From a virus, in the IMG/VR virus record IMGVR_UViG_3300022562_001465, positions 1 to 43,198 of that record: DNA of 43,198 bases. One strand, 5' to 3'. The notes beneath the pieces were generated by a model, which saw nothing but the letters and a program-made list of their open reading frames with translations, searched no databases and was not told where the DNA came from. Positions 8,486-36,515 of this stretch are shown in pieces. Position 1 is the first letter of the stretch; every line of letters starts with the position of its first letter. Both the position numbers and the translations under genes were made by a program.

Positions 8486-8491
8486 AAAGTT

Positions 8492-20852: not shown

Positions 20853-20934
20853 TCTGAGTCTTTTGCAGCACGCTTGCCTCTAAAAGCGCTACGTTACGCT
20901 GCAAGGACATGTACTGCCCTGTAATCATACCCAT
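20853..20934 (-). ncRNA. Hairpin RNA element E
   Basis: This 82-base element begins four bases after the stop codon of the ribbon-helix-helix gene. On the minus strand it has GGGCA-gtaca-TGTCC, then a GCAGCGTAACGT...GCGTGCTGC long stem and AAAAGACTC, and leads straight into repeat R1. It matches element F in layout and length. The first hairpin changes its inner pair from A-U here to G-C in F. No promoter is evident, so it may be processed from the preceding gene's message. Confidence 0.5.
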
Positions 20935-20936
20935 CA

Positions 20937-21149
20937 CTATTTACGGTGGCCTCCCCAAGTGCCAGGGGTTAAATCATTGACCGTTATTCCGATCCCTCTT
21001 TTTGATAAAAACTCGGCCACCGCCAAACGAACCAAACTCGCTTGCGACATCCCATTTTCCTTAAGAAACTTCTCAATAGATTGATGGGTTTCTGTAGGGA
21101 TTATGGCATTGAGAACTTTGCCTTTTCTTGATGCTGTTTTATCGATCAT
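20937..21149 (-). CDS. Ribbon-helix-helix DNA-binding protein (CopG/Arc-like)
   Basis: The 70-residue protein begins with a basic arm (MIDKTASRKGKVLNAIIPTE), where VLNAIIPTE is the strand that enters the DNA major groove. THQSIEKFLKENGMSQASLV and RLAVAEFLSKRGI are the two helices, with the turn at GMSQ. It is of CopG, antitoxin or ParG-like type and probably acts as a dimer or chain of dimers. The gene is bracketed by element F plus five repeats upstream and element E plus one repeat downstream, so those repeats are plausible binding sites. No toxin gene lies next to it. Confidence 0.72.
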   Translation of the reverse strand: MIDKTASRKGKVLNAIIPTETHQSIEKFLKENGMSQASLVRLAVAEFLSKRGIGITVNDLTPGTWGGHRK

Positions 21150-21184
21150 TTTTATTCAAAAGCCTTCATTGCCAATTCTGCATA

Positions 21185-21472
21185 GTTACACAACCATCGT
21201 TCCGTTCATATGAATTGAGACATTCTACACAATCCCACGTTACACAATCGTCATTCCAATCACATGAATTGAAACTCTAATAGCTTGGCTATATCGGCTT
21301 GGATCGCTGTTGCATAACCATCATTCCAATCACATGAATTGAGACATCATAGCACGATCCCGTTACACAATCGTCATTCCATTCGTTACATGAATTGAAA
21401 CCGACAGCGCCCGTTAGCCATTGCCGGCATTTTGCGTTGCACAACCATCGTTCCGTTCATATGAATTGAAAC
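21185..21472 (-). repeat. Array of five 37-40 bp CRISPR-like repeats with alternating spacing
   Basis: Repeats R2-R6 lie at 21185-21221, 21239-21275, 21309-21345, 21362-21401 (40 bp) and 21436-21472. The gaps are 17, 33, 16 and 34 bases. On the plus strand each starts GTTRCAYAAYC and ends ATGAATTGARAC. The repeats fall into two versions, one with CCAATCACATGAATT and one with CCGTTCATATGAATT. The short gaps resemble each other (both contain a TA-CAC-ATCCC pattern), so the array looks like a duplication of a unit of about 125 bp. It lies in the 519-base gene-free stretch 21150-21668, between element F and the ribbon-helix-helix gene. The repeats differ more than in ordinary CRISPR arrays. Confidence 0.75.
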
Positions 21473-21554
21473 TCCGAGTCTTTTGCAGCACGCACAGCTT
21501 TGGTAGCCTCACGTTACGCTGCAAGGACGTGTACCGCCCTATAATCACACCCAT
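21473..21554 (-). ncRNA. Hairpin RNA element F
   Basis: This 82-base element lies directly before repeat R6 on the minus strand. It has GGGCG-gtaca-CGTCC, then a GCAGCGTAACGT...GCGTGCTGC stem enclosing a GGCT/AGCT hairpin, and AAAAGACTC. The block ATGGGTGTGATTATAGGGC at its 5' end is shared with E. It points away from element A, whose plus-strand promoter starts 15 bases away at 21569. Confidence 0.5.
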
Positions 21555-21568
21555 TGGTGGAATTACCA

Positions 21569-21680
21569 TTGTTAAGCATTCAATCTCGATCTATAATACC
21601 CCTTAGCTAGTGTATAGCTGTGCAGCATAACGTAAGTCGATAGACTAAGCGTGCTGCAAAAGATCAGATTAATGATCAAG
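21569..21680 (+). ncRNA. Hairpin RNA element A, overlapping the 3' end of tnpB
   Basis: A plus-strand promoter TTGTTA (21569-21574)-17 bases-TATAAT (21592-21597) is followed by a TGTATAGCTGTGCA hairpin. A long stem then pairs GCAGC with GCTGC around AGTC-gata-GACT, and a GATCA...TGATC hairpin ends it. The 3' end covers the last codons of tnpB in antisense. If instead it is read on the tnpB strand, it occupies the place where guide (omega) RNAs of TnpB elements are encoded. G-U pairs in the first hairpin favour the plus strand. Confidence 0.55.
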
Positions 21681-22991
21681 CAACCCCCGATTTAAGATAT
21701 TGATCGCCGCATTATGATCCCGATCCATTGATAACCCGCATTCAGGACAGGCGATCCAGCGATCCGAAAGTCGCAAATCCTCAAAAACATAACCGCATTT
21801 TGAACATGTTTTGCTAGTATAATGTGGGGGGATAAAAACAATCTTGCTGCCTGTTTCCTGTGCTTTGACCTGCACGCGTTCCATAAAATACCCCCACCCT
21901 GCATCAAGAATACTTTTGCTTAAGTGCTTATTTCTGACCATATTAGCAATTTGTAGGTTTTCAAAAACAATCACATCATAATCCTTACACCAATGATACG
22001 CCAGACGATCAAAAAAGTCCTCGCGCTGGCGGGTGATCTTTAGGTGTAATTTAGCGATCTGTTTTTTATTGCGCTCATAGTTCATCCCACCTTGTGTTTT
22101 ACGGTCTAACCCATGCTGCAAGATACGGAGGCGACGTTGTGATTCCTGATACCATTTTGGATTATCAATAATCTTACCATCACTCGTGGTCATTAAATGA
22201 TGGATACCGCAATCGACTCCGATAGCGCGATCAGTTGGTGGCAAGGGTTCCGATTTCTCGATCTCACAGGTCAGGCTTATGTACCATCCATCAGCCTTAC
22301 GAATCACAGATGAAGTTTTAATAGTTCCCTCGTAAGGACGATGCCATTTAATTTTGATTGTGCCGTCAATACCGAAAATATACAGGCGATGATTGACCAG
22401 GCGTATACCGCCACCCTCCCATTGTGTAACGCCAAAACTGCTATGAAACTGATGTTGACGGTAGCCAGGTAAACCAGCCTTCTTTTCAGCTTTCTTTTTC
22501 TTGAAAAATGCCTGATAGGATTCGTCTAAGTCCATTGCAGCGCGGCGCAACATTGCCACTGATACACAACGAGCAGCAGGGATCGATTTTCGATAGGCCG
22601 CAATCTGTTTATATTGATCAAACTTACTGACTTTTTCAGGTAGATCGCAGTTTGCAAAAATTTGAACAAGGGTAGCTACTTCAGGACTTTTTCCCGCTTC
22701 CTCATAGGCTTTATCATATAAAGGTTTGCGCTCATCTTTGGGATGTTTTTTAATTTCAGCAACGGTTTCTTTAGGTAGTCTAATTTTAAGGAAAGTCGCC
22801 GCTTCTGAGATAGTACCGCCATTTGCAAGTGTTTCTTTAACCTTGCGCGATTGGTAGACTAAAAGCCGTTCTTCAAGACACATGTTATACCAGGCGCGGG
22901 TAACGTCAAGGTGGCCTTGTAACTGTAATTCCTGCACTTTTGTTGGATAAATCCGATATTGAAAAGTCTTGATCGCTTTATTTTCTTCCAT
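21669..22991 (-). CDS. tnpB: TnpB / Cas12f-like RNA-guided nuclease (IS605 OrfB family)
   Basis: TnpB proteins are RNA-guided DNA endonucleases encoded by IS200/IS605-type elements and ancestral to Cas12. With the start at MEENKAIK this protein has 440 residues. In numbering from the upstream ATG (442 residues), the RuvC residues are Asp262 in GVDCGIHH, Glu346 in VFENLQI and Asp427 in DRDHNAAIN. The zinc ribbon is C398-x2-C401 and C417-x2-C420. All catalytic positions are intact. Residues about 55-130 hold a longer, Lys/Glu-rich insertion than usual. No TnpA transposase is in the window. The gene has its own promoter and is bracketed by hairpin elements A and B. Confidence 0.92.
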   Translation of the reverse strand: MEENKAIKTFQYRIYPTKVQELQLQGHLDVTRAWYNMCLEERLLVYQSRKVKETLANGGTISEAATFLKIRLPKETVAEIKKHPKDERKPLYDKAYEEAGKSPEVATLVQIFANCDLPEKVSKFDQYKQIAAYRKSIPAARCVSVAMLRRAAMDLDESYQAFFKKKKAEKKAGLPGYRQHQFHSSFGVTQWEGGGIRLVNHRLYIFGIDGTIKIKWHRPYEGTIKTSSVIRKADGWYISLTCEIEKSEPLPPTDRAIGVDCGIHHLMTTSDGKIIDNPKWYQESQRRLRILQHGLDRKTQGGMNYERNKKQIAKLHLKITRQREDFFDRLAYHWCKDYDVIVFENLQIANMVRNKHLSKSILDAGWGYFMERVQVKAQETGSKIVFIPPHYTSKTCSKCGYVFEDLRLSDRWIACPECGLSMDRDHNAAINILNRGLLDH

Positions 22992-22997
22992 GAACAT

Positions 22998-23026
22998 ATT
23001 ATATCAAATGTATGTAATCTTGACAA
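22998..23026 (-). promoter_or_regulatory. Promoter of tnpB
   Basis: On the minus strand TTGTCA (23021-23026) and TATAAT (22998-23003) are 17 bases apart. The expected start lies next to the ATG at 22991, giving a leaderless or very short-leader message. It lies in the gene-free stretch 22998-23373, which otherwise holds element B, a terminator and a possible 19-residue frame. Confidence 0.7.
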
Positions 23027-23149
23027 TACTTGCTATCGTTTGATGTTGCCACATAATTCACCCCGGCGGTATTCTAAAAACAATTGCTAGGGATTAAAAA
23101 ATCAAGTGGGGATAGTTTGCATGTTATCTCCATTCTGTTCTATTAACCC

Positions 23150-23260
23150 TTGTTAATTATCAATCTTGATCTATAATATCCCTTAGCTAGTGCATAGCTA
23201 TGTAGCATAACGTGGATCATTGGATCGAGCGTGCTGCAAAAGATCATATTATTGATCAAG
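23150..23260 (+). ncRNA. Hairpin RNA element B
   Basis: TTGTTA (23150-23155), 16 bases and TATAAT (23172-23177) form a plus-strand promoter. TGCATAGCTATGTA is hairpin 1, and the GCAGC/GCTGC-type stem encloses GATC-attg-GATC (here the first arm reads GTAGC, which can pair as G-U). The terminal hairpin is GATCA-tattat-TGATC. The block CCATTCTGTTCTATTAACC on its left (23130-23148) is shared with element C only. Confidence 0.55.
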
Positions 23261-23315
23261 TAACTAAAGATAGGCATAAAGCCATTAACCCCAATATCAC
23301 TACAATCAACAGCAT
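23256..23315 (-). CDS. Possible 19-residue hydrophobic peptide
   Basis: The frame reads MLLIVVILGLMALCLSLVT and would be a single membrane helix. Its stop codon is the TGA in GTTACTTGATCA at the edge of element B, the same position at which the 47-residue frame ends at element C. The ribosome site is weak (GGGCGG) and a terminator lies just upstream, so it may not be translated. Confidence 0.3.
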   Translation of the reverse strand: MLLIVVILGLMALCLSLVT

Positions 23316-23348
23316 ATCCGCCCAACAAGGCAACGGATCGCAGGGTAA

Positions 23349-23368
23349 AAGGGGGATTTGCTCCCCCT
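23349..23368 (-). terminator. Intrinsic terminator after the secreted-protein gene
   Basis: On the minus strand AGGGGG (complement of 23363-23368) and CCCCCT (complement of 23350-23355) form a 6-bp G-C-rich stem around seven bases, followed by TTT. It lies directly after the stop of the gene at 23374. Confidence 0.7.
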
Positions 23369-23373
23369 GATCT

Positions 23374-23898
23374 TTATTGTCCAACGCGCACAATCCATGA
23401 ATCATGTTTACCGATCCGCCGCACCGCGATCCATCCGATCAAATTGCCATCATCGGGGTCAGGATCAAAGTCGGGACTATAGCACCACTTCCATTTGCCT
23501 GAGAATACGCAATCCTCATCATTAAAACTGATATAATGTGCATCCCCCTGTCCCCACCATCCAACGGTATCATTGGGAATCTCATCAGCACACATATCAT
23601 GTGTGGTTGGACAAGTGCGAACATGGAATGGAATTGGCAGAAACGAAATATTTTTTGCCAATACCGCATTGTTGATCGCTTGCTCCGCAATTGGATCAAC
23701 CGGCGGATAAAACCATCCTAAATCCTCCGAGTCTTGGGGAGCGTGATCAAGGAGTGAGCTATCCTGTGTCCATTCCAGTCCGGGGGGTGGCGTATAATCA
23801 TCGGGAGGCGGCGGATCGCCAGGGTCTTGTGCATATACCATTGATGGCAACAATAACACCATCACCAAAAAAATGATCAATACCAATCGGTTTCCCAT
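23374..23898 (-). CDS. Secreted or envelope-located protein of unknown function
   Basis: Residues 1-24 are a clear signal peptide (RLVLIIFLVMVLLLPSMVYA, likely cleaved after the last Ala). The mature part begins with a proline/aspartate-rich linker (QDPGDPPPPDDYTPPPGLEW) and continues to a domain with several cysteines (RTCPTTHDMC, NDEDCVF, KWKWC) and tryptophans that ends in GWIAVRRIGKHDSWIVRVG, much like a small SH3-type fold. I recognise no family. A phage-encoded exported protein may act in superinfection exclusion or at the cell wall, but that is inference. Confidence 0.65.
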   Translation of the reverse strand: MGNRLVLIIFLVMVLLLPSMVYAQDPGDPPPPDDYTPPPGLEWTQDSSLLDHAPQDSEDLGWFYPPVDPIAEQAINNAVLAKNISFLPIPFHVRTCPTTHDMCADEIPNDTVGWWGQGDAHYISFNDEDCVFSGKWKWCYSPDFDPDPDDGNLIGWIAVRRIGKHDSWIVRVGQ

Positions 23899-24227
23899 GC
23901 TAGTTCCTTTCGTTTGTTGTGTTTATTATCGCATATCTCAAAACGCGATACAGCTTTTTGTAAATTAAAATGATATTCACGGCCAAACTGTTTTTTGTGG
24001 ACAGGCACGGCCACCTCAACCATTGTTTTACTAAAGCGCTCATCCCGATCCAATGCTCTTAAGATATGCCACCCTCGATCCTTTGGGGTCACGCGCCGGC
24101 AGTGCGCTCGATGAGCAATCAATTCTAAAATAGCCTGATCTCCATAGCCAATTGATTGAATGCCCTGCTCCTGCATAACCGCTAAGGCAATCGTGCCGAT
24201 CTTAGTCTCAGTCATGATGGTTTCCAT
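23877..24227 (-). CDS. Hypothetical protein, 116 residues
   Basis: I do not recognise this protein. Its N-terminal part, TIALAVMQEQGIQSIGYGDQ, and AHRAHCRRVTPKDRGWHILR suggest a small helical domain with a basic stretch. It overlaps the signal-peptide gene by 22 bases. Hairpin element C ends close to its start codon, and the AGAATGGA around the start is shared with the boundary of element B. A second ATG lies four codons in. Confidence 0.55.
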   Translation of the reverse strand: METIMTETKIGTIALAVMQEQGIQSIGYGDQAILELIAHRAHCRRVTPKDRGWHILRALDRDERFSKTMVEVAVPVHKKQFGREYHFNLQKAVSRFEICDNKHNKRKELAWETDWY

Positions 24228-24243
24228 TCTGTTCTATTAACCA

Positions 24244-24354
24244 TTGTTAATTATTCAATCTTGATCTATAATATCCCTTAGCTAGTGTATAGCTATGCAG
24301 CATAACGTGGATCATTGGATCGAGCGTGCTGCAAAAGATCATTTATTGATCAAG
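24244..24354 (+). ncRNA. Hairpin RNA element C
   Basis: TTGTTA (24244-24249), 17 bases and TATAAT (24267-24272) form a plus-strand promoter. TGTATAGCTATGCA is hairpin 1, the GCAGC/GCTGC stem encloses GATC-attg-GATC, and the terminal hairpin GATCA-ttta-TTGATC has a shorter loop than in A, B and D. Its 3' end meets the stop codon of the 47-residue frame. Confidence 0.55.
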
Positions 24355-24493
24355 TAACCTCCCGTGATCGACCAAAGATCGCTGCTAAATCAGCGATAGG
24401 ATCAAAGGATTGTGTAAAACGATCATATTGATCTTTGGAAAGTAAAGATGATTCACCAAAGATGATCAACTCATCAGGATTCTTTTTTTCCAT
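24350..24493 (-). CDS. Small acidic protein, 47 residues, overlapping the end of tmk
   Basis: The frame starts at an ATG seven bases after AAGGAG, inside the last codons of the thymidylate kinase gene. It reads MEKKNPDELIIFGESSLL and ends FGRSREVT. Composition is protein-like rather than random. Its TGA stop is the TGA of GTTACTTGATCA at the edge of element C. I recognise no family. Confidence 0.6.
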   Translation of the reverse strand: MEKKNPDELIIFGESSLLSKDQYDRFTQSFDPIADLAAIFGRSREVT

Positions 24494-25058
24494 TTATCCA
24501 CTCCTTAACTAAGGCAATAATCGATTCGTGAATACGATCAACCGGCAAGCTGCCATCAATTCTGATAAAGCGCTTTTCACGCTGTATCATCTCAAAATAA
24601 CCTTCTCGTACCCGATTAAAAAAACTCTCATCATTCACCAACGGATCACGTAATTGAGCCGTCCTGAAATCAATATCCAAGAAAAAGGTGATGGTTGGGA
24701 AAACGTCCCCCTTAACTAAGGGTTCCAACATCCGTAAACGCGAGATATTCATATTTTGACCATAGCCCTGATAGGCAATCGTGGAATCGAAAAATCGATC
24801 CATAATCACAACCCGATTTTGATCAAGCGCCGGCACAATGACCCGCTGCACCAATTCCGCTCGTGCCGCGTTATAGAGTAAGGCTTGGGTAGTGGGGGTT
24901 ACTTTATAGTTTTCCAACAGATTGCGGATCGCCTCCCCAACAGCCGTCGAGCCAGGTTCGCGCAACAATAACGCATCGTGATCAAAAAGTGCTTTATAAA
25001 GTAACTCCGCTTGGGTTGATTTGCCACTGCCATCAAACCCCTCAAAGGTAATTAACAT
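24474..25058 (-). CDS. tmk: Thymidylate kinase
   Basis: This enzyme phosphorylates dTMP to dTDP for phage DNA synthesis. From the start at 25058 (AAGGGGG lies nine bases before it) the protein has 194 residues. It shows the P-loop FEGFDGSGKST at 5-15, LLLREPGSTAVGEAIR with the conserved Arg-Glu-Pro-Gly, VIMDRFFDSTIAYQGYGQ (the DR(Y/F) dTMP site) and the LID-side FFNRVREGYFEM. A longer frame begins 15 codons earlier, inside the gene before it. Length and motifs are normal. It belongs to the operon running from 28.15 kb. Confidence 0.9.
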   Translation of the reverse strand: MLITFEGFDGSGKSTQAELLYKALFDHDALLLREPGSTAVGEAIRNLLENYKVTPTTQALLYNAARAELVQRVIVPALDQNRVVIMDRFFDSTIAYQGYGQNMNISRLRMLEPLVKGDVFPTITFFLDIDFRTAQLRDPLVNDESFFNRVREGYFEMIQREKRFIRIDGSLPVDRIHESIIALVKEWINGKKES

Positions 25059-25059
25059 G

Positions 25060-25494
25060 TTAAATTCCCCCTTGCCCATAATTCCCAAGATCGGATTCAT
25101 CAATATAAAAGCCGCCCCCCTCAGTCAGCCCGGCATCATCCTCGACAATCACTTGATTAGTAATCTCTGACCATTTGCCTTGTGATTTAGCAAACAATTG
25201 ATCCCAAATATAATTATCATCCGGCGACCAATGGAGTTCGATAATACCCTGCTGTATCATGATTTTCAATTGATCAAAAATATCACCCACTGTTAATCCA
25301 TTAATCCAAACATCATTGGCAAGGCCATCTTTAATCGCCATAAAAATATCAATCTCAGGGGGTGATGGTTCTTTTTGGACTAAAGAAAACTCTCCCTTTT
25401 CAATGGCCTGTTGAAATAAATCGTTAAAATTCTTTATTTGATCCCCCGTTACATAATAGGGGTTGTTTGGTTTCTTTTTAATCGATCCCATCAT
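25060..25494 (-). CDS. Hypothetical acidic protein, 144 residues
   Basis: I do not recognise this protein. It begins MMGSIKKKPNNPYYVTGDQI and is acidic, with PSPPEIDIFMAIKDGLANDV and a C-terminal DDAGLTEGGGFYIDESDLGN. AGGAG precedes the two adjacent ATG codons. The gene overlaps the MazG-like gene by four bases and abuts tmk, so it may be part of the nucleotide-metabolism cluster. Confidence 0.6.
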   Translation of the reverse strand: MMGSIKKKPNNPYYVTGDQIKNFNDLFQQAIEKGEFSLVQKEPSPPEIDIFMAIKDGLANDVWINGLTVGDIFDQLKIMIQQGIIELHWSPDDNYIWDQLFAKSQGKWSEITNQVIVEDDAGLTEGGGFYIDESDLGNYGQGGI

Positions 25495-25817
25495 TCAATT
25501 CTCCTAATCTTGCCATTTTCATCAATCTGATGGGTATCCGCCGATTTACGATCATTTTTCTCAATCACCTGCCGGATCGCCTGTTCCAATTCCCAATATT
25601 CCGCTCCCTTTGCCAACAACATTTGGATGATGGTCACAACCACGTCCGCCGCCTCATGGCAGGACTCCTCAACAGTCCCCGCTAAAACCGCATCCCGCAA
25701 TTCCCCTACCTCCTCATGGAAAATGCCTAAACATTGCGCTATATTCTGATTGCCGCCTTTATGCCCCCAAAACCGTTCTAAAAATACCTGTGTTTTTGTC
25801 CATAAAGTTAAAAGCAT
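25491..25817 (-). CDS. MazG-like nucleotide pyrophosphohydrolase
   Basis: The all-alpha NTP pyrophosphohydrolase signature is present. FHEEVGELRDAVLAG (Glu30-Glu31 and Glu34) is followed by a second acidic helix, SCHEAADVVVTIIQMLLA, giving the E-x-x-E...E-x-x-D pattern that binds magnesium. These enzymes remove diphosphate from NTPs, dNTPs or damaged nucleotides and in phages are often linked to dNTP pools or ppGpp. The 108-residue length is normal for the minimal family. It overlaps its neighbours on both sides and shares an operon with tmk. Confidence 0.78.
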   Translation of the reverse strand: MLLTLWTKTQVFLERFWGHKGGNQNIAQCLGIFHEEVGELRDAVLAGTVEESCHEAADVVVTIIQMLLAKGAEYWELEQAIRQVIEKNDRKSADTHQIDENGKIRRIE

Positions 25818-26053
25818 TACAAAACCCTCCCAAGCATCATTAAAAAAATGTTGCAGCCCGTTAGCATCAGGATAAACAAAGTACAGCAGGTCATAAAGCG
25901 TTTATCCTTTTGCGCCTGATTATCGCGCACGATTTTACGGTAAATCCGCAGGCGTTCTTCTGCCGTTTTACCGCGTGCCAACTTTTCAAACCGCGCCTTG
26001 TTTTGCTGCGATTTGATATAAGATTCCATGATTTTCTTTTTATTCCCGTTCAC
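25817..26053 (-). CDS. Small protein with a C-terminal membrane helix
   Basis: The first 50 residues are very basic and helical (KKKIMESYIKSQQNKARFEK, then RLRIYRKIVRDNQAQKDKR). Residues 53-74 (MTCCTLFILMLTGCNIFLMM) form a membrane helix. That is the layout of a tail-anchored protein with its bulk in the cytoplasm. I recognise no family; holin-like or superinfection roles are possible but not supported. Confidence 0.6.
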   Translation of the reverse strand: MNGNKKKIMESYIKSQQNKARFEKLARGKTAEERLRIYRKIVRDNQAQKDKRFMTCCTLFILMLTGCNIFLMMLGRVL

Positions 26054-26088
26054 GGTTAATCCTATAGCTAAAGGGTAAATCGATTTTG

Positions 26089-26508
26089 TTAGGGATAGGA
26101 ATTAGATATTGCACAACCACGCTCATCCCCCTCCAATAGTTTCAAAACTGCTTGCCCCAATGGGGTTAATTCTTTTTGATCATTGATTAAAAAAAACTGC
26201 TTGGCTTTTTTGCTAACCGATCCCGTAAAACGCTGATCTCGATACTGATCACATTCTCGTGCCGTTAGCTTGCGGCTAATCGTATCGGCAGCAAAAATGC
26301 TAAAGCAGCCCATCACAAACGCATTGGGATACCCCTTGCCCAATAAAAACGCCTGTGCCTCAATCTTGCTCCCCTCAAACTGCTCCTGAGCAAGCATTTG
26401 GCTATCATCAGGCTTTAATTTGCCTGCCGTGATCCCGAAGGTATCTCTCCCCCTCCTATACAAAAGATAATCACGGCGGCCATCATTGAATTTAATAATT
26501 CCCTGCAT
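26089..26508 (-). CDS. Hypothetical protein, 139 residues
   Basis: I do not recognise this protein. It begins MQGIIKFNDGRRDYLLYRRG and is mixed alpha/beta, with SRKLTARECDQYRDQRFTGS and a C-terminal LTPLGQAVLKLLEGDERG that looks like the final helix of a winged-helix protein. It meets the next gene end to start. Confidence 0.6.
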   Translation of the reverse strand: MQGIIKFNDGRRDYLLYRRGRDTFGITAGKLKPDDSQMLAQEQFEGSKIEAQAFLLGKGYPNAFVMGCFSIFAADTISRKLTARECDQYRDQRFTGSVSKKAKQFFLINDQKELTPLGQAVLKLLEGDERGCAISNSYP

Positions 26509-26951: not shown

Positions 26952-27241
26952 TTGGCAATTTCCTTTCTTGCATATTCTAGTAAAACCTTTTGGCGGGGAT
27001 CAGATTCAATTTGTAAGGCAAAGTGCAGTATATCCAACAATTCTCCCTTAATCCCCATTAAAAGGTGGGGACGCTTATTCGCCGTCTCCATGTATAGCTC
27101 CAACAACACCAATACCGTCCCGCGCCGAATATCGATATTGGAACAGGTCAGCGCCGCCTTAAGAGGACTTTGATTTTTAGCAAAAGTGGATTTAATAGCA
27201 CTCAAGGCTTGTTGATATAAGCCAATCATTTGTTGATCCAT
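26948..27241 (-). CDS. Hypothetical helical protein, 97 residues
   Basis: I do not recognise this protein. It appears all-helical (MIGLYQQALSAIKSTFAKNQ and LLMGIKGELLDILHFALQIE) and ends with a basic ARKEIAK. It overlaps its neighbours by four and sixteen bases. Confidence 0.6.
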   Translation of the reverse strand: MDQQMIGLYQQALSAIKSTFAKNQSPLKAALTCSNIDIRRGTVLVLLELYMETANKRPHLLMGIKGELLDILHFALQIESDPRQKVLLEYARKEIAK

Positions 27242-27636
27242 TTACCAAACTCCCCACTACGCTCATTGATAAATCTGAAAAATAAGACGCTAAAATATTC
27301 GCCATATGCAGGCAGATAATTTGGCTCAAACTTTGCCCAATAAAAGCCATCCATTGCAAAGGGAGTAATTTTGATCGGCATATCAAAATCACGGATCGCC
27401 TGATCAATAAAGGGTTTGGTGTAATAGCGCCGCAATTCAGGGTAGCGGTAATCCTCAAGTCCCTTACAGTAATTCCCTTTTAAGTGCGTGATACTCTCTA
27501 GCATGGCCGACGGTGTGATCCCATCTACCCATCGGATCACAGTGCGGTATTCAATCCGTACCCGAATCGGTTGATTAGGATAAAGGCGGTGTAGCGCCTG
27601 ACGCAAGACCCGCGCCGATTCTACTTGCGACCCCAT
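27226..27636 (-). CDS. Hypothetical protein, possibly LPD29-like
   Basis: The first 50 residues, SARVLRQALHRLYPNQPIRV followed by RIEYRTVIRWVDGITPSAML, resemble the pattern of LPD29, a small domain found in polyvalent phage and plasmid proteins (helix, strand, strand, then a helix). The remainder is aromatic-rich (PFAMDGFYWAKFEPNYLPAY). The match is by eye and tentative. It meets the preceding gene exactly at 27636. Confidence 0.45.
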   Translation of the reverse strand: MGSQVESARVLRQALHRLYPNQPIRVRIEYRTVIRWVDGITPSAMLESITHLKGNYCKGLEDYRYPELRRYYTKPFIDQAIRDFDMPIKITPFAMDGFYWAKFEPNYLPAYGEYFSVLFFRFINERSGEFGKWINK

Positions 27637-28154: not shown

Positions 28155-28172
28155 AAAAATCTCCTTTGCTTT

Positions 28173-28202: not shown

Positions 28203-28232
28203 TCCGCTTTTTTATGACCGCAATTTGCATGA

Positions 28233-28970
28233 TTAATCTCCAAAAATAGTTTTTTGTTCAAGTGCTTGAATGATAGGGGTATCTACCAAGCGGGCTTTAG
28301 CATAATCAATATACACTTGGCTTATATCAAACCCAATATATTGCTTGCCCGCCGCGTGCGCCGCTACTAAGGTTGTCCCGCTGCCGCAAAAAGGATCAAG
28401 CACTGTATCGGCTAAGGCCGCTGCCCCAATAATCCGCTGCGGGATTTCTAAAGGGAATGGTGCCGGGTGAGAGCTATTTTGCTCAGGAGATATTGCCCAT
28501 AAATCAAACAGCCCATGCCCCTTTTTTAAGCGAAAGGCCGACTTGGGGATCATATAAATCACCTCATAGTTCGGCGTAAAATGGGTAGTATTCCAATTCA
28601 CGCCGGCCCCGGTATGCCAAATAATCACCTGGCGCACTGGCAAGTCCCCGATAATGGCCTGTCGCATATCTAAGAGGCCGGCCTGTATGCGCCATTTATG
28701 ATTGTAAAAGATGGCCCCGGTAGGCTTAATTAGGCGATACATTTCCAATAAGCATTGGTGCTGCCATTGATTATAAGCATCAATCGGCATATTATCATCA
28801 TGATCCTCATAGCCCCCGACTAAAGAGTTCTTTTCCCAAGTACCGCCGCGCCACCGATTGCCGCCGCCGGTGCTGTTTTGCATATTGTAGGGAGGTGAAG
28901 TGATAATCAGATCAATAGATTCATCGACTAAAGATTGCATCCCTTTCAAAGCATCCATACATTGAATCAT
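28233..28970 (-). CDS. DNA methyltransferase (N4-cytosine or N6-adenine)
   Basis: The catalytic motif TSPPYN (residues 24-29) precedes the SAM motif FCGSGTTLVAAHAAGKQYIG near residues 195-215. TSPPY is common in N4-cytosine enzymes, and DPPY would be more typical of N6-adenine. The middle contains GAIFYNHKWRIQAGLLD and a target-recognition-like region. The 245-residue length is usual for solitary phage methyltransferases. No restriction enzyme gene lies beside it. It overlaps the previous gene as ATGA. Protecting phage DNA from host restriction is the likely role. Confidence 0.85.
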   Translation of the reverse strand: MIQCMDALKGMQSLVDESIDLIITSPPYNMQNSTGGGNRWRGGTWEKNSLVGGYEDHDDNMPIDAYNQWQHQCLLEMYRLIKPTGAIFYNHKWRIQAGLLDMRQAIIGDLPVRQVIIWHTGAGVNWNTTHFTPNYEVIYMIPKSAFRLKKGHGLFDLWAISPEQNSSHPAPFPLEIPQRIIGAAALADTVLDPFCGSGTTLVAAHAAGKQYIGFDISQVYIDYAKARLVDTPIIQALEQKTIFGD

Positions 28971-31141: not shown

Positions 31142-31587
31142 TCATATATCCCTGATTGAATAATCTTCTCGCGCTCCACCTCACCCCAGGCCGTTAACTG
31201 ATAAAAGGGTGTGTTAGGACTTTCATCATAAGGCACAAACAAACACCGCTCAGATAGGCAGTGCAGTAGTTTAGTTACAGGCCGCCGCGCAATATGCTCG
31301 GACGCATAGGTACGATAATGATCAAACATATGCCGCATCCGAGGCCGACCAAGTAACAACAGGGTGTGGATCATCTGTTGGCGATCCGGCTTTAATAGCG
31401 CTTGATAGGCTCTCCCACTGCGATCCTGTTTGGCCTCCAAGCGGACTGTCATACAGGTAATTTGCGCCCGCAGCACCTCGGCTGACCAATCCTCAACACA
31501 AGGACGGTGGCGATTGCCTAATAAAACCACTTGCAGTAGTTCTTTCTCATTATCGCTAAAGTAAAACCCATCACCCCGATAAAACAC
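31102..31587 (-). CDS. Hypothetical protein, 161 residues, GTG start under the operator
   Basis: The start codon is GTG at 31587, immediately after operator copy 4, whose AAGGAG gives the ribosome site. The protein has an N-terminal DNEKELLQVVLLGN, a helical centre (LLLLGRPRMRHMFDHYRTYA) and TPFYQLTAWGEVEREKIIQS near the end, which looks like a winged-helix strand and helix. It overlaps the next gene by 40 bases. I recognise no family. Confidence 0.55.
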   Translation of the reverse strand: MFYRGDGFYFSDNEKELLQVVLLGNRHRPCVEDWSAEVLRAQITCMTVRLEAKQDRSGRAYQALLKPDRQQMIHTLLLLGRPRMRHMFDHYRTYASEHIARRPVTKLLHCLSERCLFVPYDESPNTPFYQLTAWGEVEREKIIQSGIYEWHEKRIIKKYTV

Positions 31588-31588
31588 G

Positions 31589-31608
31589 TTGTAAAGGCTC
31601 CTTTACAA
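31589..31608. promoter_or_regulatory. Palindromic operator, copy 4
   Basis: TTGTAAAGGCTCCTTTACAA is identical to copy 1 and lies between two genes. It touches the GTG start of the 161-residue gene and contains its ribosome site. Confidence 0.75.
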
Positions 31609-32073
31609 ATTCGCCACATCGGTAATCCCGATATGATCAAGTAATCCAACGATTGCCGCGTATAACCGCCGCTCATCCCCTGTTATATAACGCTTGGCAT
31701 CATATTTCCGTTTCACATCGGCCAATACCTGTTGAGCATAATAAACGGCATCAGGGATACGGGGATTCTTGGCAAGTACCCATCCGTCGGGAAAGTACCT
31801 AATAAACGTATCCATATCCTCAATGTTATGCCGGCCTACAAAATCCCCATCCTCACTGAATGCCCACCGTTTAATCTTGTCGCCATCCCATATCAAAATA
31901 TCAAATCCGCTGACAAAGTTGGCATTAAACGCCCACATATCATCAAAACGCAAGGCTATCTCGATTAGCCAAACCTTTTCGTCAATCGTGAGGGTACGAT
32001 AGATAGGCCAATCCTGCCCATTGCGCCATTCCTTAACTAAAGGCAAATCGGGATCATAAGGGTGATAAATCAT
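31603..32073 (-). CDS. Hypothetical protein, 156 residues
   Basis: I do not recognise this protein. It begins MIYHPYDPDLPLVKEWRNGQ and contains ALRFDDMWAFNANFVSGFDI and a short helix-rich end with YAAIVGLLDHIGITDVANL. Its last codons reach into operator copy 4. It overlaps the preceding gene by four bases. Confidence 0.6.
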   Translation of the reverse strand: MIYHPYDPDLPLVKEWRNGQDWPIYRTLTIDEKVWLIEIALRFDDMWAFNANFVSGFDILIWDGDKIKRWAFSEDGDFVGRHNIEDMDTFIRYFPDGWVLAKNPRIPDAVYYAQQVLADVKRKYDAKRYITGDERRLYAAIVGLLDHIGITDVANL

Positions 32074-32876
32074 TTAAGTGCCTCCACCAATGCGTCGGGA
32101 ACATCGCAGAACTCAAACGGAATAGTACATTGCCACCCGTCGATCCGACTTTCTACATTAAAACCGATTGATTCAATCACATACAAAATCTTAACTCGAT
32201 CCCCATCCTGAAAAAATGCGTTATCGGGATATTCGGCCTCATATCCTGCCTTGATGAGAAAGGTACGATCCGACAGATATTTGGCAATGATTTCATTTTC
32301 TTTAGCCTGTACCGCTGCCAATGCCTTATCAATCACCACACCACATAAACTCAATACCTGATCCCGTACCCGCTTTAGTTCTTGTCGTAGTTCTATTAAA
32401 TCGGATTGTGCGGGGGAATCATTTTCCTGATCAGACCATAAAGTTTTAAGGGTAGTGGACACATATTGATGAATGATTTCAAGTTTATATTCCAATTGAT
32501 GGGCTAATTTTGGTGGGTTTTCGGTACTCACTGCAATGGTGCGTAAAATACCGCGTACAGACTCCAAGTCGCGTTTTAGGTTGTCGCGTTCCTGTTGCAA
32601 TGCCAGGACTTTTAATTTAAGTTCAAGATCGGTTATATCATTAATACCACTGCTCATTGTATCTCCAAAATTGGGCTGTTGCTCATCAGGCAAATCATAG
32701 GATAACCCATACAGCAAATCGCGCAGCAGTTCCGTTTGTTCCTCAACAGTATGTAGTCCCTTTTCGGCAATATCCTCAACTAACATTTCCTCAATCTCAG
32801 ACAGGGTATAACCTCCATCTCCCGGCCAAATACCCCATTTATCAAGTAAAGCACTCACATCAATAATCACACCCAT
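32070..32876 (-). CDS. Hypothetical coiled-coil protein, 268 residues
   Basis: From the start at 32876 (AAAGGAG lies before the ATG) it begins MGVIIDVSALLDKWGIW. The middle has LELKLKVLALQQERDNLKRD and DLIELRQELKRVRDQVLSL, two coiled-coil segments. The C-terminal 90 residues are a mixed domain with LIKAGYEAEYPDNAFFQDGD and FNVESRIDGWQCTIPFEFCD. I recognise no family. It sits in the operon driven by the promoter at 33752. Confidence 0.6.
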   Translation of the reverse strand: MGVIIDVSALLDKWGIWPGDGGYTLSEIEEMLVEDIAEKGLHTVEEQTELLRDLLYGLSYDLPDEQQPNFGDTMSSGINDITDLELKLKVLALQQERDNLKRDLESVRGILRTIAVSTENPPKLAHQLEYKLEIIHQYVSTTLKTLWSDQENDSPAQSDLIELRQELKRVRDQVLSLCGVVIDKALAAVQAKENEIIAKYLSDRTFLIKAGYEAEYPDNAFFQDGDRVKILYVIESIGFNVESRIDGWQCTIPFEFCDVPDALVEALK

Positions 32877-32887
32877 TTGAATCTCCT

Positions 32888-33724
32888 TTATTTGGCTAAA
32901 CTCATAAACCACTGTTCCCCAATCATGGGGGTAATATGTCCTTGCTCAATTAGCCACCGCACCCGTGCTGTATCCGTGCGCCATTCCCAAAAGTTGATAG
33001 GCAGCAGGGGGATATAGGCAATCTTTTTTTGCATCGTGATCAGTAAATCAAATAAATTGTTACCCTTAAAAGTTTCATCTCCCCATTTGACCGCGTAACG
33101 AGAAACAGGCTCGGCATTCAAAGTGGGCATAACCCTCGCCACCAACATTTTTAAGGCTGCCGCTTTTTCCGTGTACCACTTAATGTAGCTATGCGCCCGT
33201 GCGTATTCAGGACTTTCGGCGGGGTATTCCGCCTGTAAGCGCCAAAAGGGGATAAATAATTTCCCTTCGGGGCTATAGGGGCGAACAGGGATAATCCGAT
33301 CCTTAAGCATTTGTTGGATAGCGCGTGCCTCTAGCCATACTTCCAGATAAGCCGCTTTTGCCACTTTGATTTTGTCGGCATTTTGAACCGCTTTCGCCTG
33401 CCGCCTGGCCTCGGCTAACTGATCACGTAAAGCCTGATCAGCATTTTGCAAGGATTCATAGAGTGCCGGGTTAATCGCCTTAAAATGCTCAATACAGGTT
33501 GACCCCACCTGATTAATCCCATAAATGGGGTGCTTAATCACAAAACAGTATCGGATCGGGTGGCCGCAGGCACAAGATTCGCTGCTGTTGACCCCGGCAT
33601 CCAGGCACTCCCCTGTATATTCCCATTCTGATGGGTTTTTAAGTGCCGCGATCAAGGCACTTGCATGATGCAGAGTATTGGCTTTTTTATCGATTTGGCT
33701 TTTTAACGCGCTGACTTTGGTCAT
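32888..33724 (-). CDS. Zinc-binding protein of unknown function, 278 residues
   Basis: The N-terminal 100 residues contain ECLDAGVNSSESCACGHPIR, YCFVIKHPIYG and VGSTCIEHFKAINPALYESL, giving a Cys-x-Cys...Cys...Cys/His set typical of a zinc-binding fold that recurs in phage and bacterial proteins of unknown role. The rest is mainly helical and basic. It is the first gene after a near-consensus promoter at 33752-33780 and is followed by the coiled-coil gene 12 bases later. Confidence 0.62.
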   Translation of the reverse strand: MTKVSALKSQIDKKANTLHHASALIAALKNPSEWEYTGECLDAGVNSSESCACGHPIRYCFVIKHPIYGINQVGSTCIEHFKAINPALYESLQNADQALRDQLAEARRQAKAVQNADKIKVAKAAYLEVWLEARAIQQMLKDRIIPVRPYSPEGKLFIPFWRLQAEYPAESPEYARAHSYIKWYTEKAAALKMLVARVMPTLNAEPVSRYAVKWGDETFKGNNLFDLLITMQKKIAYIPLLPINFWEWRTDTARVRWLIEQGHITPMIGEQWFMSLAK

Positions 33725-33751
33725 GATTGGGTTCCTTATTCCTTAAAGATC

Positions 33752-33780
33752 AGTATATAGCATAATACTTATCTTGTCAA
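33752..33780 (-). promoter_or_regulatory. Consensus promoter of the 33.7 kb operon
   Basis: TTGACA (33775-33780) and TATACT (33752-33757) are 17 bases apart on the minus strand. The block TTGACAAGATAAGTATT is shared with the promoter at 39179-39207. Confidence 0.8.
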
Positions 33781-33783
33781 GAA

Positions 33784-35130
33784 TTAGTTTTTACCCTCTA
33801 ATAATTCTAGTAAAACATCGCCATGACAGCGCTCGTCCCCTTTTTTCTTACACCAACAAACCAATCGTTTACCTCTTAACTCCTCCAAATCAGCTATCAG
33901 GTTAGGCTGCTGTACAATCCATTCCTGATATAAGGCAATAGCCTTATCCTTAGTCCCAACGGCGGGATCGCTTTTGCTAAAGGGGTTTCCCCATTTACTA
34001 TTTGCCAATTTGGGATGATTGGGATTCTTTTGCGCCCGCCCAATGTAAACCACATCAGGATCATCCAAATTCACGTTAAACACATAATCGACAACGGTCT
34101 TGATTAACTTACCATCCTGTCCGTATAAAATCGGTTTTAACCCCATCTGCACGGCCAGGGTGTAGAATGGCGACTTGGCATCAAAACACAATACAATACT
34201 TGCTCCCTCCAACAGCGTCCCCAAAATAAAGCGCTCCCGACTGCGCTCAGGAATAGCAACATGATTCGCTAAACAGGCAAAATGATCATAATCCTTACCG
34301 CCCCGTAAGCGGGGCAGGCCATTCCAATAATCGGCCATCTTGCCGCCCTCATACCCCCAGGTTTGACAAGGGACTTTATAGCGCCCGCATTCATTTTGCG
34401 TAAAATCGTTACATTCGGTAGGCTTATCATCGATCAGAATTTCGGCGTTGAGGCTAACGGCACGCTGTACCGCCTTTTTGATCACCTCCCCCTGCGCTAA
34501 GGTAAAGGGATCGACACTATCGATAAAAATACGATTATGCAATCCCCATCCCCCCATCGCCTTAATCAGCATCAAGGTTAGCTGCACATCGGCTAAGGCA
34601 TCATGAGCATTACTTAAATCAATATCCGGTAATTCATGTTGGATAGCGTCCGTTAACTTAAAGTTTTTAGCATAACCAAACTTACCCACCTCCTCACGGT
34701 AGGCAGCATAGGCTTTCATAGCGCAACTGAATTCTAAATCCAATAGGGGGAGATTGTTATGCTGATAGGCATAATCTAAAATCAGTTTTTCAAACCAATC
34801 ATTGTAAGCAATCACGGTGCGTCCCCTACCCCACCGAGCAAGCGTATCATATAAAACCTTAAAGGATGGCGCATCAGCGACCATTGCATCCGAGACATGG
34901 TGGACGGCCTCGGCCTCCGGATCGATAGCGGTACGGACGGGTTTTAGATACGTTTGCAAAATCGGTGTGCCATAAGCATTAATCACGGCCACTGATACCG
35001 GCTCCGGTTTAGGACGTTTAGGATTCTTTTTATCAGGCGGCAATCCGGTGGTTTCAAAATCCAAGATAATAAAATCCCGTTTTTTAAGATGATCCCTAGC
35101 CCAATCAACCGCCTCGCGTCGTGTTTTCAT
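33784..35130 (-). CDS. DnaQ-like (DEDDh) exonuclease fused to a DUF4326 domain
   Basis: Residues 1-190 are a 3'-5' exonuclease: FIILDFETTGL has Asp24 and Glu26, AYNDWFEKL has Asp111, and NAHDALADVQLTLML has His176 and Asp181. A middle region of 190-350, with cysteines around TECNDFTQNECGRYKVPCQT and a strand-rich segment, is not recognised. The last 85 residues, VYIGRAQKNPNHPKLANSKW followed by GNPF, and ending CWCKKKGDERCHGDVLLELL, are DUF4326, whose function is unknown and which is often near nucleotide or DNA enzymes. The fusion could clip nucleic acid and then act on the products. It overlaps the next gene by four bases. Confidence 0.82.
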   Translation of the reverse strand: MKTRREAVDWARDHLKKRDFIILDFETTGLPPDKKNPKRPKPEPVSVAVINAYGTPILQTYLKPVRTAIDPEAEAVHHVSDAMVADAPSFKVLYDTLARWGRGRTVIAYNDWFEKLILDYAYQHNNLPLLDLEFSCAMKAYAAYREEVGKFGYAKNFKLTDAIQHELPDIDLSNAHDALADVQLTLMLIKAMGGWGLHNRIFIDSVDPFTLAQGEVIKKAVQRAVSLNAEILIDDKPTECNDFTQNECGRYKVPCQTWGYEGGKMADYWNGLPRLRGGKDYDHFACLANHVAIPERSRERFILGTLLEGASIVLCFDAKSPFYTLAVQMGLKPILYGQDGKLIKTVVDYVFNVNLDDPDVVYIGRAQKNPNHPKLANSKWGNPFSKSDPAVGTKDKAIALYQEWIVQQPNLIADLEELRGKRLVCWCKKKGDERCHGDVLLELLEGKN

Positions 35131-35405
35131 TTTTTGCGCCCCTCAATCTCAAAACTCATCTCTACCCAATCCCGATCAAAAAGATCACTACTTTGCTGCG
35201 GGGTTCCAAAGTGAAACTCATAATGCCACCCCTCTTGCTTAAACTTTTGTATATCCATTGCGATATAGTTTGTTAGCATATAAGCGCGAGGAGCCTTGAT
35301 GGTTCCGCTTAAATCCTCATAATTGGCGGTGTGATAATGCCAAACATCAAAAATATCAGCCACATATTTACTTAAAACATTGCGTATATATTCCGTCAAA
35401 TTCAT
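35127..35405 (-). CDS. Hypothetical protein, 92 residues
   Basis: I do not recognise this protein. It begins MNLTEYIRNVLSKYVADIFD and has a hydrophobic aromatic centre (RAYMLTNYIAMDIQKF) followed by beta-like HYEFHFGTPQQSSDLF. It overlaps both neighbours by four bases, between a nuclease and the exonuclease fusion. Confidence 0.6.
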   Translation of the reverse strand: MNLTEYIRNVLSKYVADIFDVWHYHTANYEDLSGTIKAPRAYMLTNYIAMDIQKFKQEGWHYEFHFGTPQQSSDLFDRDWVEMSFEIEGRKK

Positions 35406-36160
35406 TCCTGATCTCCTAAATAACGTTTATAAAAATCCAACAGATTCGGTTTATGTGGATCGATATTGGCTGCCTCCTGATCCGCAATCATACGCGCCAT
35501 CAGGCGCATGGAATGGCGCACCGTTTTTTGGTATGCCAACACCTCAAACAGTTGCATCATATGATCAGGTAAATCATGGGTAATCATTTGACCGGCCAAG
35601 CGCAGCACTACCCACCCTCGTGCCGCCGCTAAATTGTATTTGCGGCAATCTTTCTCGTACCCGCCGCCGCGTGTATGCCCACCCGCGATCCGCTCCCCCT
35701 CATCATTGGTAGTTCCCCAAATGCCGCCCTCGATCTCGACGGCTACCCAATAGGGGTCAGGCCACGCAAAATCAAAACGATAACGATCCACCCCGATCTG
35801 CTTACCCGTAAAGGAACAAGCCGGATCGGGATAGGGATTTTGGCGCTCTCCATTCATGGCAACCCACGCCTGCCAAAAGGTCGCCTCAAGATGCAAGTTG
35901 GCCTGCTGTTGAGCTAATTGTTTGAGTGTTTTAGGGGGCATATCGGGTGTCTCCTGATATTCAATAGGAATATATTGATTCATGGCTAGTTGCAATCTAG
36001 GTAACATATCTCGTGCTTTTGCAACATCAAGCGCATAACTTAACCACTTGGTATTACGATTTATATCTTTAGGGAGAATATTTAAATCAGCCATAATAGT
36101 AAATTGCTGATCAATGGTTAACTCTTTCCAAAATAAATATTGTAATTTATCAAATTCCAT
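35402..36160 (-). CDS. PD-(D/E)XK-like endonuclease
   Basis: The start at 36160 follows GGAG by seven bases; an ATG five codons earlier is less likely. The C-terminal half has VDRYRFDFAWPDPYWVAVEI followed by EGGIW, then RKYNLAAARGWVVLRLAGQM. A conserved Asp in the first strand, a Glu-x-Glu in the second and a Lys/Asn helix followed by a hydrophobic strand are the pattern of Vsr-like and DUF559 PD-(D/E)XK nucleases. The N-terminal 120 residues are helical. It could resolve recombination intermediates or act in repair with the neighbouring helicase and exonuclease. Confidence 0.65.
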   Translation of the reverse strand: MEFDKLQYLFWKELTIDQQFTIMADLNILPKDINRNTKWLSYALDVAKARDMLPRLQLAMNQYIPIEYQETPDMPPKTLKQLAQQQANLHLEATFWQAWVAMNGERQNPYPDPACSFTGKQIGVDRYRFDFAWPDPYWVAVEIEGGIWGTTNDEGERIAGGHTRGGGYEKDCRKYNLAAARGWVVLRLAGQMITHDLPDHMMQLFEVLAYQKTVRHSMRLMARMIADQEAANIDPHKPNLLDFYKRYLGDQE

Positions 36161-36392
36161 GATCAAACTCCACAATCTGATAAATCCCCTGATCCCCTAA
36201 TTCAATCAGGCCGGCGCTTTCCAATTCATCATATAGATCATGATGCCCCACAATCACAAAGGTATGATTAAACTGATGGCGCAAGCGCCAATACAATTGC
36301 ATAGCGGCAGGGGATACATTTAACTCCTGCCGACACGTTCGGCATAAACGCCCCCCATTCATAAATTTGGCACAACGTTGACAACGTTTCAT
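36150..36392 (-). CDS. Zinc-ribbon protein, 80 residues
   Basis: The N terminus reads MKRCQRCAKFMNGGRLCRTC, two CxxC pairs (Cys4/7 and Cys17/20) forming a zinc ribbon. The rest, MQLYWRLRHQFNHTFVIVGH and HDLYDELESAGLIELGD, is helix-rich. It may be a DNA-binding accessory. Its start lies just after hairpin element D, and the ribosome site AAGGG sits between the two. It overlaps the nuclease gene. Confidence 0.7.
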   Translation of the reverse strand: MKRCQRCAKFMNGGRLCRTCRQELNVSPAAMQLYWRLRHQFNHTFVIVGHHDLYDELESAGLIELGDQGIYQIVEFDHGI

Positions 36393-36403
36393 TCCTAATT
36401 CCC

Positions 36404-36515
36404 TTGTTAATTATTCAATCTTGATCTATAATATCCCTTAGCTAGTGCATAGCTATGCAGCATAACGTAAGTCGATAGACTAAGCGTGCTGCAAAAGATC
36501 ATGTTGTTGATCAAG
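36404..36515 (+). ncRNA. Hairpin RNA element D
   Basis: TTGTTA (36404-36409), 17 bases and TATAAT (36427-36432) form a plus-strand promoter. TGCATAGCTATGCA is hairpin 1. GCAGC/GCTGC encloses AGTC-gata-GACT as in element A, and a GATCA-tgttgt-TGATC hairpin follows. The last codons of the UvrD-type helicase lie inside it in antisense. It stands 12 kb away from the other five members. Confidence 0.55.

Follow-up and report, generated by a model that had tools for sequence, protein, structure and literature searches.

The tnpB locus and its six hairpin elements

The IMG/VR virus record IMGVR_UViG_3300022562_001465, analysed here over its whole length of 43,198 bases (the window), encodes a terminase, a helicase and DNA methyltransferases, and its genes lie mostly on the minus strand. 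It also carries an intact gene for the RNA-guided nuclease TnpB and six related hairpin elements, A–D on the plus strand and E and F on the minus strand, with tnpB located between A and B. We propose that A–F probably encode guide RNAs for the TnpB of the same phage, with A–D arranged as cassettes and F followed by a repeat array. The nuclease gene and the sequence in front of it are as follows.

21669..22997, minus strand: tnpB, RNA-guided nuclease of 442 amino acids (NCBIfam guided_TnpB, Pfam OrfB_IS605 and Cas12f1-like_TNB, alignment with ISDra2)
22998..23026, minus strand: promoter-like TTGTCA-17-TATAAT directly before tnpB (from the sequence)

The protein exceeds the curated family cut-off of NCBIfam guided_TnpB (258.6 bits versus 100) and misses the narrower cut-offs of IS200_TnpB (256.3 versus 425 bits) and IS607_TnpB (133.7 versus 350 bits), as well as those of the CRISPR effectors c2c8 (166.2 versus 350 bits) and Cas12f2 (79.8 versus 450 bits). 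PADLOC returns a Cas12f match of 198 bits to a model that has no curated cut-off. The best solved relative is ISDra2 TnpB (8h1j, E 1.9e-45), and the name TranC turned up among the PDB matches. Read off the ISDra2 alignment, the RuvC residues D262, E346 and D427 are in place, and two CxxC pairs (CSKCG and CPECG) are present; the ISDra2 positions that correspond to E346 and D427 are those we presume. D191 of ISDra2 is a RuvC position (PMC8612924). A nuclease-dead TnpB of the TldR type is ruled out by the intact RuvC triad.

The promoter-like sequence directly adjoins the gene, and the tnpB mRNA may be leaderless. Its resemblance to the 5´ block of A–D is weak, with 33 of 1000 shuffles scoring as high, and was not used as evidence. 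The tnpB promoter begins with TTGTCAAG, which is also contained in two 42-nt copies (10119–10160 and 33749–33790, 76% identity) upstream of minus-strand open reading frames (ORFs); these copies are possibly a phage promoter or operator. The record, which may be a fragment, contains no match to the Y1 transposase TnpA (the control was positive in 5 of 14), to Cas1 or to Cas2, and no serine resolvase or recombinase was found in it.

All six elements were found where the original prediction, made from the DNA letters alone, had placed them, except that E and F run further than it had noted, through a CRISPR-like repeat that reaches 20816 in E and 21436 in F. A covariance model built from A–F and run unfiltered over the window recovered the same six (E 2e-22 to 1e-15). 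The best remaining matches had E values of 0.19 and 0.37; among the weak matches, three fall on repeats of the adjoining array. The A–D family extends over 135 nt with 73–81% identity to the reference copy, and E and F share 119 nt at 82%, which is far beyond chance. Family identity, covariation and the model search rule out chance or a repeat artefact as the origin of A–F. No known Rfam family accounts for the elements: Rfam gave no match above the gathering score over the window, a single sub-threshold match in 20700–24500 that lies outside the elements (17.7 versus 46.7 bits), and no match on L006, L007, L015, L016 and L017, five loci from other records that are described below.

Fold, covariation and the predicted guide-RNA pseudoknot

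The single-strand folds of A–D are alike (z −3.4 to −4.4): stem 1 ends in a 5-nt loop, the core hairpin carries a 3-nt bulge, and a further hairpin lies at the 3´ end. The expected fold is also predicted for F, with a longer 3´ part (z −1.43, or −2.34 with the repeat removed). In the A–F alignment, 95.5% of 132 cells are paired, a value that none of 500 shuffles reached. The original prediction had described the stems as covarying; the covariation score agrees (0.370 compared with 0.222 in shuffles, none of 500 reaching it, and no more than 0.067 on sliding), but the counts of double-change pairs (6 of 22, equalled by 41/500 shuffles) and of further pair types (11 versus 13.8 in shuffles, equalled by 492/500) are not above the shuffled background. 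Because the sequences are related and the structure was derived from some of them, covariation is support and not proof.

The two paired changes named in the prediction, AGTC/GACT to GATC/GATC and GGGCA/TGTCC to GGGCG/CGTCC, are borne out. It had also claimed that hairpin 1 of A–D varies only by G-U-type changes. The stem does contain one G-U change (in A), but the T/C change sits in the loop. The polarity argument built on this claim still stands, because that loop base would form a C-G or U-G pair with the 3´ end. Several one-sided changes in A–F are G-U types on the assigned strand, and in A and C, the only two compared, the minimum free energy (MFE) is −27.3 and −27.6 kcal/mol on the plus strand versus −21.6 and −21.7 kcal/mol on the minus strand.

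In ISDra2, as described in its cryo-EM paper, the stem-1 loop of the guide RNA (omegaRNA or reRNA) is paired to scaffold positions −6 to −2, and the guide follows position −1; the pseudoknot has three Watson-Crick pairs in its centre and non-canonical pairs on either side, among them the G·A at −106/−2 (PMC10097598). Our sequence comparisons support a pseudoknot between the 5-nt loop of stem 1 and the last scaffold bases (..AG[U/C]AAC or ..UG[U/C]AAC), with the predicted guide directly after it. The first pair is G·A in all 13 tabulated RNAs, as in ISDra2. A register test was applied to 11 RNAs, near-copies among them (A–F, the array repeats R2 and R4, L006, L015 and Thermus phage T72). At the predicted register 31 of the 33 central pairs are canonical, compared with 5–21 of 33 at 17 shifted registers. 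R3, R5, L016, L017, L018 and Thermus phage TSP4 are in the pseudoknot table only, from which Thermus phage phiLo (L009) was excluded because its stem 1 is altered.

The pairing partners form three sets: GGACG with CGUCA (L006, L015–L018 and the Thermus phages TSP4 and T72), GUACA with UG[U/C]AA (E, F and the repeats), and GUG[U/C]A with AG[U/C]AA (A–D). The partners covary between these groups. Since members inside a group are closely related, independent evidence comes from the comparison of groups and not from single rows. R2, R4 and R5 show full pairing with the loop of F apart from the G·A. A–D are conserved up to ..AAC exactly and are unrelated beyond, and the array is likewise variable after each repeat. 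F begins 128 nt past the tnpB stop codon on the same strand, with A in between; E is on the tnpB strand about 750 nt off, and A–D are on the opposite strand. We consider it very likely that A–F are TnpB-type guide RNAs, an identity that the original prediction had overlooked, as it had tnpB in its place between A and B, the guide past the conserved block, and the array after F.

Putative promoter-scaffold cassettes A–D

The plus-strand elements and the genes that they enter are listed below; the guide length of 16 nt is taken from PMC8612924.

21569..21684, plus strand: element A, promoter TTGTTA-17-TATAAT and scaffold ending ..AAGCAAC
21685..21700, plus strand: predicted 16-nt guide of A, lying antisense inside the tnpB 3´ end
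23150..23264, plus strand: element B, promoter and scaffold ending ..AAGTAAC
23265..23280, plus strand: predicted guide of B, overlapping just a doubtful 61-amino-acid ORF
24244..24358, plus strand: element C, promoter and scaffold ending ..AAGTAAC
24359..24374, plus strand: predicted guide of C, lying antisense near the 3´ end inside a 47-amino-acid ORF
24350..24493, minus strand: 47-amino-acid ORF that overlaps the dTMP kinase gene, with its stop codon inside element C
36404..36519, plus strand: element D, promoter and scaffold ending ..AAGTAAC
36520..36535, plus strand: predicted guide of D, lying antisense inside the helicase 3´ end
36480..38327, minus strand: UvrD-like helicase gene, the last codons of which run into element D

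Each cassette measures about 115 bp, is composed of a promoter-like block and an approximately 80-nt scaffold, and has a different predicted guide. The stop codons of the tnpB, 47-amino-acid and helicase ORFs fall inside A, C and D, respectively. The conserved block begins about at the −35 box, and the TTGTTA-16/17-TATAAT motif that had been reported for A–D was found in all four. Because A–D are homologous, the four promoter copies count as one observation. The region as a whole contains 13 promoter-like sites versus 11.0 expected (sd 3.5), and the A–D promoters are plausible rather than shown because such sites are not enriched. A blastn search with D and its guide against the phage collection returned nothing.

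The original prediction had inferred small RNAs or RNA leaders transcribed in one polarity. The part on small RNAs of one polarity agrees with the fold, the G-U-type changes, the order of promoter and scaffold, and the common 3´ boundary. RNA leaders are not supported, because A–D are antisense to the adjoining minus-strand genes and A, C and D enter the 3´ end of a convergent gene. Terminators and leaders are both ruled out by the lack of a U-tract and by the orientation. A broader possibility is that the elements are structured antisense RNAs or terminator/attenuator hairpins unrelated to TnpB, for which their operon-junction positions and the convergence of A, C and D with the adjoining gene could be cited. 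We give this explanation hardly any credence, as stem 1, the pseudoknot and the 3´ boundary obey the TnpB guide-RNA rule, L006 ties the elements to tnpB-linked RNAs, and the hairpins are not followed by a U-tract.

Elements E and F and the repeat array

On the minus strand, the scaffold of F runs on into an array of repeats, and the scaffold of E into a single one.

21436..21540, minus strand: element F, scaffold and repeat R1 (21436–21472) without a break
21402..21435, minus strand: guide/spacer 1, 34 nt
21362..21401, minus strand: repeat R2, 40 nt, then a 16-nt spacer (21346–21361)
21309..21345, minus strand: repeat R3, 37 nt, then a 33-nt spacer (21276–21308)
21239..21275, minus strand: repeat R4, 37 nt, then a 17-nt spacer (21222–21238)
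21185..21221, minus strand: repeat R5, 37 nt, the last of the array, with a possible guide from 21184 down
20816..20920, minus strand: element E, scaffold and a single repeat (20816–20852), predicted guide 20815–20800

The array contains five repeats in a row with unique spacers and an irregular spacing of 34, 16, 33 and 17 nt. The repeats consist of the 3´ hairpin region and the pseudoknot strand, without stems 1 and 3, and end in ..GCAAC, which we take to be like the ending of the Cas12f repeat. A blastn search with F and the array against the phage collection returned nothing. We consider the use of the array for several guides an evenly balanced question. Between the array and E lies a 70-amino-acid ORF (20937–21149, minus strand) that by eye is possibly a ribbon-helix-helix regulator and has no match in Pfam, NCBIfam or PADLOC.

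The same layout could belong to a type V-U-like CRISPR system of the phage, in which TnpB, the array, and F and E in the manner of a trans-activating CRISPR RNA (tracrRNA) would be directed against rival phages or host loci, and A–D would be strays. This proposal draws on the 37–40-nt repeats with unique spacers behind F, on the profile matches to the Cas12u4, Cas12u2/C2c8 and Cas12f models, and on CRISPR-like arrays beside phage tnpB that are already published for Thermus Lalka phages and landfill viruses (PMC11437467 and PMC12607003). It is weakened by the spacers, which are irregular (16–17 and 33–34 nt) and for which no protospacer was found in the case of spacers 1 and 3, by the failure to find cas1 and cas2 in the record, and by the missed curated cut-offs of c2c8 and Cas12f2, and we regard it as unlikely.

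Related RNAs and their mobility

A search of viral contigs with the core motif of A–F yielded one locus (L006), which was retained as a relative because the sequence flanking it matches the 3´ end of a tnpB located on that contig. In addition to the core motif, L006 has a stem 1 and a 3´ end that recur at the tnpB 3´ ends of Thermus phages TSP4 and T72 and in L017/L019. A pattern derived from this L006/Thermus-type group matched 7 loci in 6 records. L017 and L019 are tnpB-linked, and L006, L014/L015 and L016 are standalone; L018, near a contig end, was classed as neither. L014 is identical to L015 over 2400 bases, and L019 carries the same element as L017; they were not counted twice. Out of 7 records, including that of the window, the TnpB zinc-finger domain was detected in 4; the others, possibly fragments, are those of L014, L015 and L016.

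L015 has TTGACT-17-TATAAT just before its scaffold and aims into the 3´ end of a convergent ORF, as do A, C and D; its element gave nothing in blastn against the phage collection. L016 (3817–3895) is likewise standalone and of the TnpB guide-RNA type, but its guide is found just upstream of an ORF that is on the same strand and by eye resembles radical-SAM proteins, unlike the convergent 3´-end cases.

Scanning genome contigs with the core-hairpin pattern gave four loci (L010–L013), with approximately five chance matches expected as a rough estimate. The flanks of L011 and L012 have no similarity by eye. L010 and L013 were excluded from the family, as they match model positions 18–55 only and the rest of the scaffold is absent. 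These two (L010 351–386 and L013 6335–6370) are mutually homologous hairpins beside the same 624-amino-acid ORF in metagenome-assembled genomes of Acidobacteria and Aminicenantes. Their inner-stem and loop letters resemble those of B and C beyond the search pattern, and Rfam gave no match on L010 1–900.

The standalone RNA of L006 has its two ends in common with a tnpB element that lies about 6.6 kb off on the same contig: 59 columns at the left end (80%, E 9e-8) and 42 nt at the right end (81%, E 3e-7), with E values that are valid for that pair of stretches only. By eye, the shared ends include hairpins with arms altered together. In L037, a syntenic, diverged relative of L006 (45% protein identity), approximately 385 nt are absent at the gene junction where the standalone RNA of L006 is located. 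Because its ends are shared with the tnpB element and L037 lacks the insert, the standalone guide RNA of L006 behaves as an insertion.

Another possible reading of A–F is as non-autonomous IS200/IS605-type elements, i.e. miniature inverted-repeat or palindrome-associated transposable elements (MITE/PATE), which would provide single-stranded DNA ends for a Y1 transposase acting in trans, with the RNA being incidental. The short, dispersed A–D at gene junctions would agree with this, as would the shared ends of the standalone and tnpB elements of L006 and the relative whose junction has no insert. We nevertheless think it quite improbable that this is what A–F are, for the pseudoknot joins the loop to the guide-proximal end, the G-U pairs suit one strand only, A–D carry a promoter-like block, and TnpA was not found in the record. 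The MITE/PATE and guide-RNA readings are compatible, as one element can be both.

Target searches

Ten guides were compared with the window and matched their own loci, with one further partial match: guide E matches 14 of 16 positions at 27267–27282 (minus strand), inside ORF 27226–27636, where 0.04 such matches are expected per guide and ten guides were tried. In blastn against phages, spacer 1 had no match and spacer 3 had matches at E 4 only; 20 nt of spacer 3 had none in viral contigs. An 18-mer of spacer 1 occurs in five viral contigs that represent three unrelated contexts, without a match beyond 18 nt, and was taken as chance.

These results bear on RNA-guided regulation without cutting, in which the guides would silence phage or host genes in the manner of TldR. 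The guides of A, C and D lie inside phage genes, guide E has its partial match elsewhere in the window, and phage-encoded TldR regulators exist (PMC13418256). However, the RuvC D/E/D residues and the zinc finger of TnpB are intact, and apart from the partial match of guide E the ten guides find nothing but their own loci in the window, which makes such a role highly unlikely.

Other genes of the record

Every match of the window TnpB and terminase in 50,697 phage records is below 60% identity, and relatives of the phage sought via TnpB, the helicase and one L015 gene revealed no new virus. The large terminase gene (4110–6563, minus strand) contains an intein (Pfam Hint_2 and Intein_splicing). 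Four DNA methyltransferase-like genes lie at 7166–8548, 28233–28970, 40643–41998 and 42376–43149, two of which have ParB-like profile matches. Within ORF 38580–39158 (minus strand), positions 38929–39108 consist of 15-nt units of the CTCAGGTTAGCGTAR type, with nine overlapping 60-nt copies. This ORF perhaps encodes a pentapeptide-repeat protein.

Discussion

The scaffold type, the promoter-like blocks, the guide position, the intact nuclease and the insertion behaviour of one relative are supported at the sequence level. The transcription, binding, cutting and copying that we infer for A–D would operate as follows. Each guide RNA would comprise stem 1, the core hairpin (stem 3) and the 3´ hairpin region (stem 4). 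A sigma-70-type promoter in A–D would drive an approximately 80-nt scaffold that takes the adjoining sequence as its guide. As the guide is whatever sequence adjoins the scaffold, a cassette would always target its own insertion site. The occupied site would be spared, since the sequence directly before the target is then the scaffold and not a target-adjacent motif. In a co-infecting or replicating genome, TnpB would cut an allele that lacks the cassette, and repair would use the occupied copy as template. Placement at gene junctions with an antisense guide in a gene 3´ end may keep the gene functional and the target conserved. Such a drive or homing cycle would resemble the one reported for TnpB insertion sequences, and drive by TnpB in multicopy plasmids has been reported (PMC11870625). 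We rate drive or homing as the main role of A–D slightly less likely than not.

The tnpB transcript itself probably carries F as its guide RNA. The 3´ segment behind F, i.e. the stem 4 region and the pseudoknot strand, may have been copied four times with different guides to give an array that possibly yields several guides. A more speculative view, which we hold only tentatively, is that the scaffold of F serves its own fused repeat and, in trans via the pseudoknot, R2–R5, while A–D are miniature guide-only homing genes that parasitise or serve TnpB, making the locus a transposon-to-CRISPR intermediate. As a further and equally tentative part of this view, the scaffold would be divided between stems 3 and 4, with the whole hairpin region remaining in the repeat, whereas the Cas12f-type split lies inside stem 4.

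Several observations weigh against the guide-RNA interpretation of the locus. No convincing target was found for the ten guides within the window, nor for spacers 1 and 3, the only ones searched alone beyond it. No TnpA or serine recombinase that might have moved A–D was found in the record. No empty site for A–D was found; the helicase and TnpB searches gave no relatives. The left boundary of A–D is not fixed, because B and C have 19 nt of additional 5´ flank in common. The folds of E and F are not much better than those of shuffles; the MFE structure of E is another fold than that of the family (z −1.44), with stem 1 kept only in the centroid. One A·C mismatch occurs in the pseudoknot of E, F and R3, and the repeat hairpins are weak (−2.9 to −5.0 kcal/mol), adopt several shapes and show no covariation. 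The A–F model gives L006 32.6 bits, yet the unexplained hairpins L010 and L013 receive 34.9 and 35.6 bits. At E 5 or better, it detects none of the Thermus-type RNAs (L007–L009 and L014–L019); the kinship of A–F with the Thermus type is therefore based on L006 together with stem 1 and the pseudoknot.

The guide-RNA loci share with the ISDra2 omegaRNA/reRNA the pseudoknot of the stem-1 loop, stems 3 and 4, a guide directly 3´ and a nuclease with intact RuvC residues. In contrast to ISDra2, the window has six guide-RNA loci per tnpB, four of them with promoter-like blocks and opposite to tnpB, its record has no detected TnpA, and F runs on into a repeat array. The type V-U (C2c8/Cas12u2 and Cas12u4) and Cas12f systems likewise have a small TnpB-like effector beside an array; in the window, however, scaffold and first repeat are one continuous sequence and the c2c8 and Cas12f2 cut-offs are missed. 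TranC (LaTranC) is a TnpB relative proposed to bridge the fused guide RNA and the CRISPR array. The window differs from it as a phage locus with dispersed promoter-scaffold cassettes, in which the repeat keeps the stem-4 region and the pseudoknot strand. For IscB, Altae-Tran and colleagues reportedly described standalone omegaRNAs in 2021, i.e. guide-RNA genes away from the nuclease gene; the window differs in having TnpB, a phage setting and insertion-site guides in gene 3´ ends. In the Thermus Lalka phages, too, a phage TnpB lies beside a short CRISPR-like array without cas1/cas2. Their arrays have 29-bp repeats and 32–33-bp spacers, and in the available part of that account the repeat is not derived from the guide-RNA scaffold and no standalone guide-RNA genes are described (PMC11437467).

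TnpB guide RNAs are already known, and arrays beside phage tnpB have already been reported. Among the titles and abstract openings listed, none describes promoter-driven standalone TnpB guide-RNA cassettes in a phage, or an array whose repeats stem from the TnpB guide RNA next to it, which is weak evidence of novelty.

How the single guide RNA of TnpB became the two-part tracrRNA/crRNA (CRISPR RNA) of Cas12 is an open evolutionary question, and a split and expansion of the omegaRNA is proposed in the ISDra2 cryo-EM paper (PMC10097598). In the window, tandem copies of the 3´ segment alone come after an intact scaffold, beside an intact tnpB. Because all three share one small phage locus, the step from guide RNA to array would be directly testable in E. 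coli. Standalone guide RNAs also occur in other viral contigs, among them L014/L015 and L016, whose records, possibly fragments, have no TnpB domain match. If the proposed reading is true, a guide-only cassette that has its own promoter would represent a homing gene of very small size.

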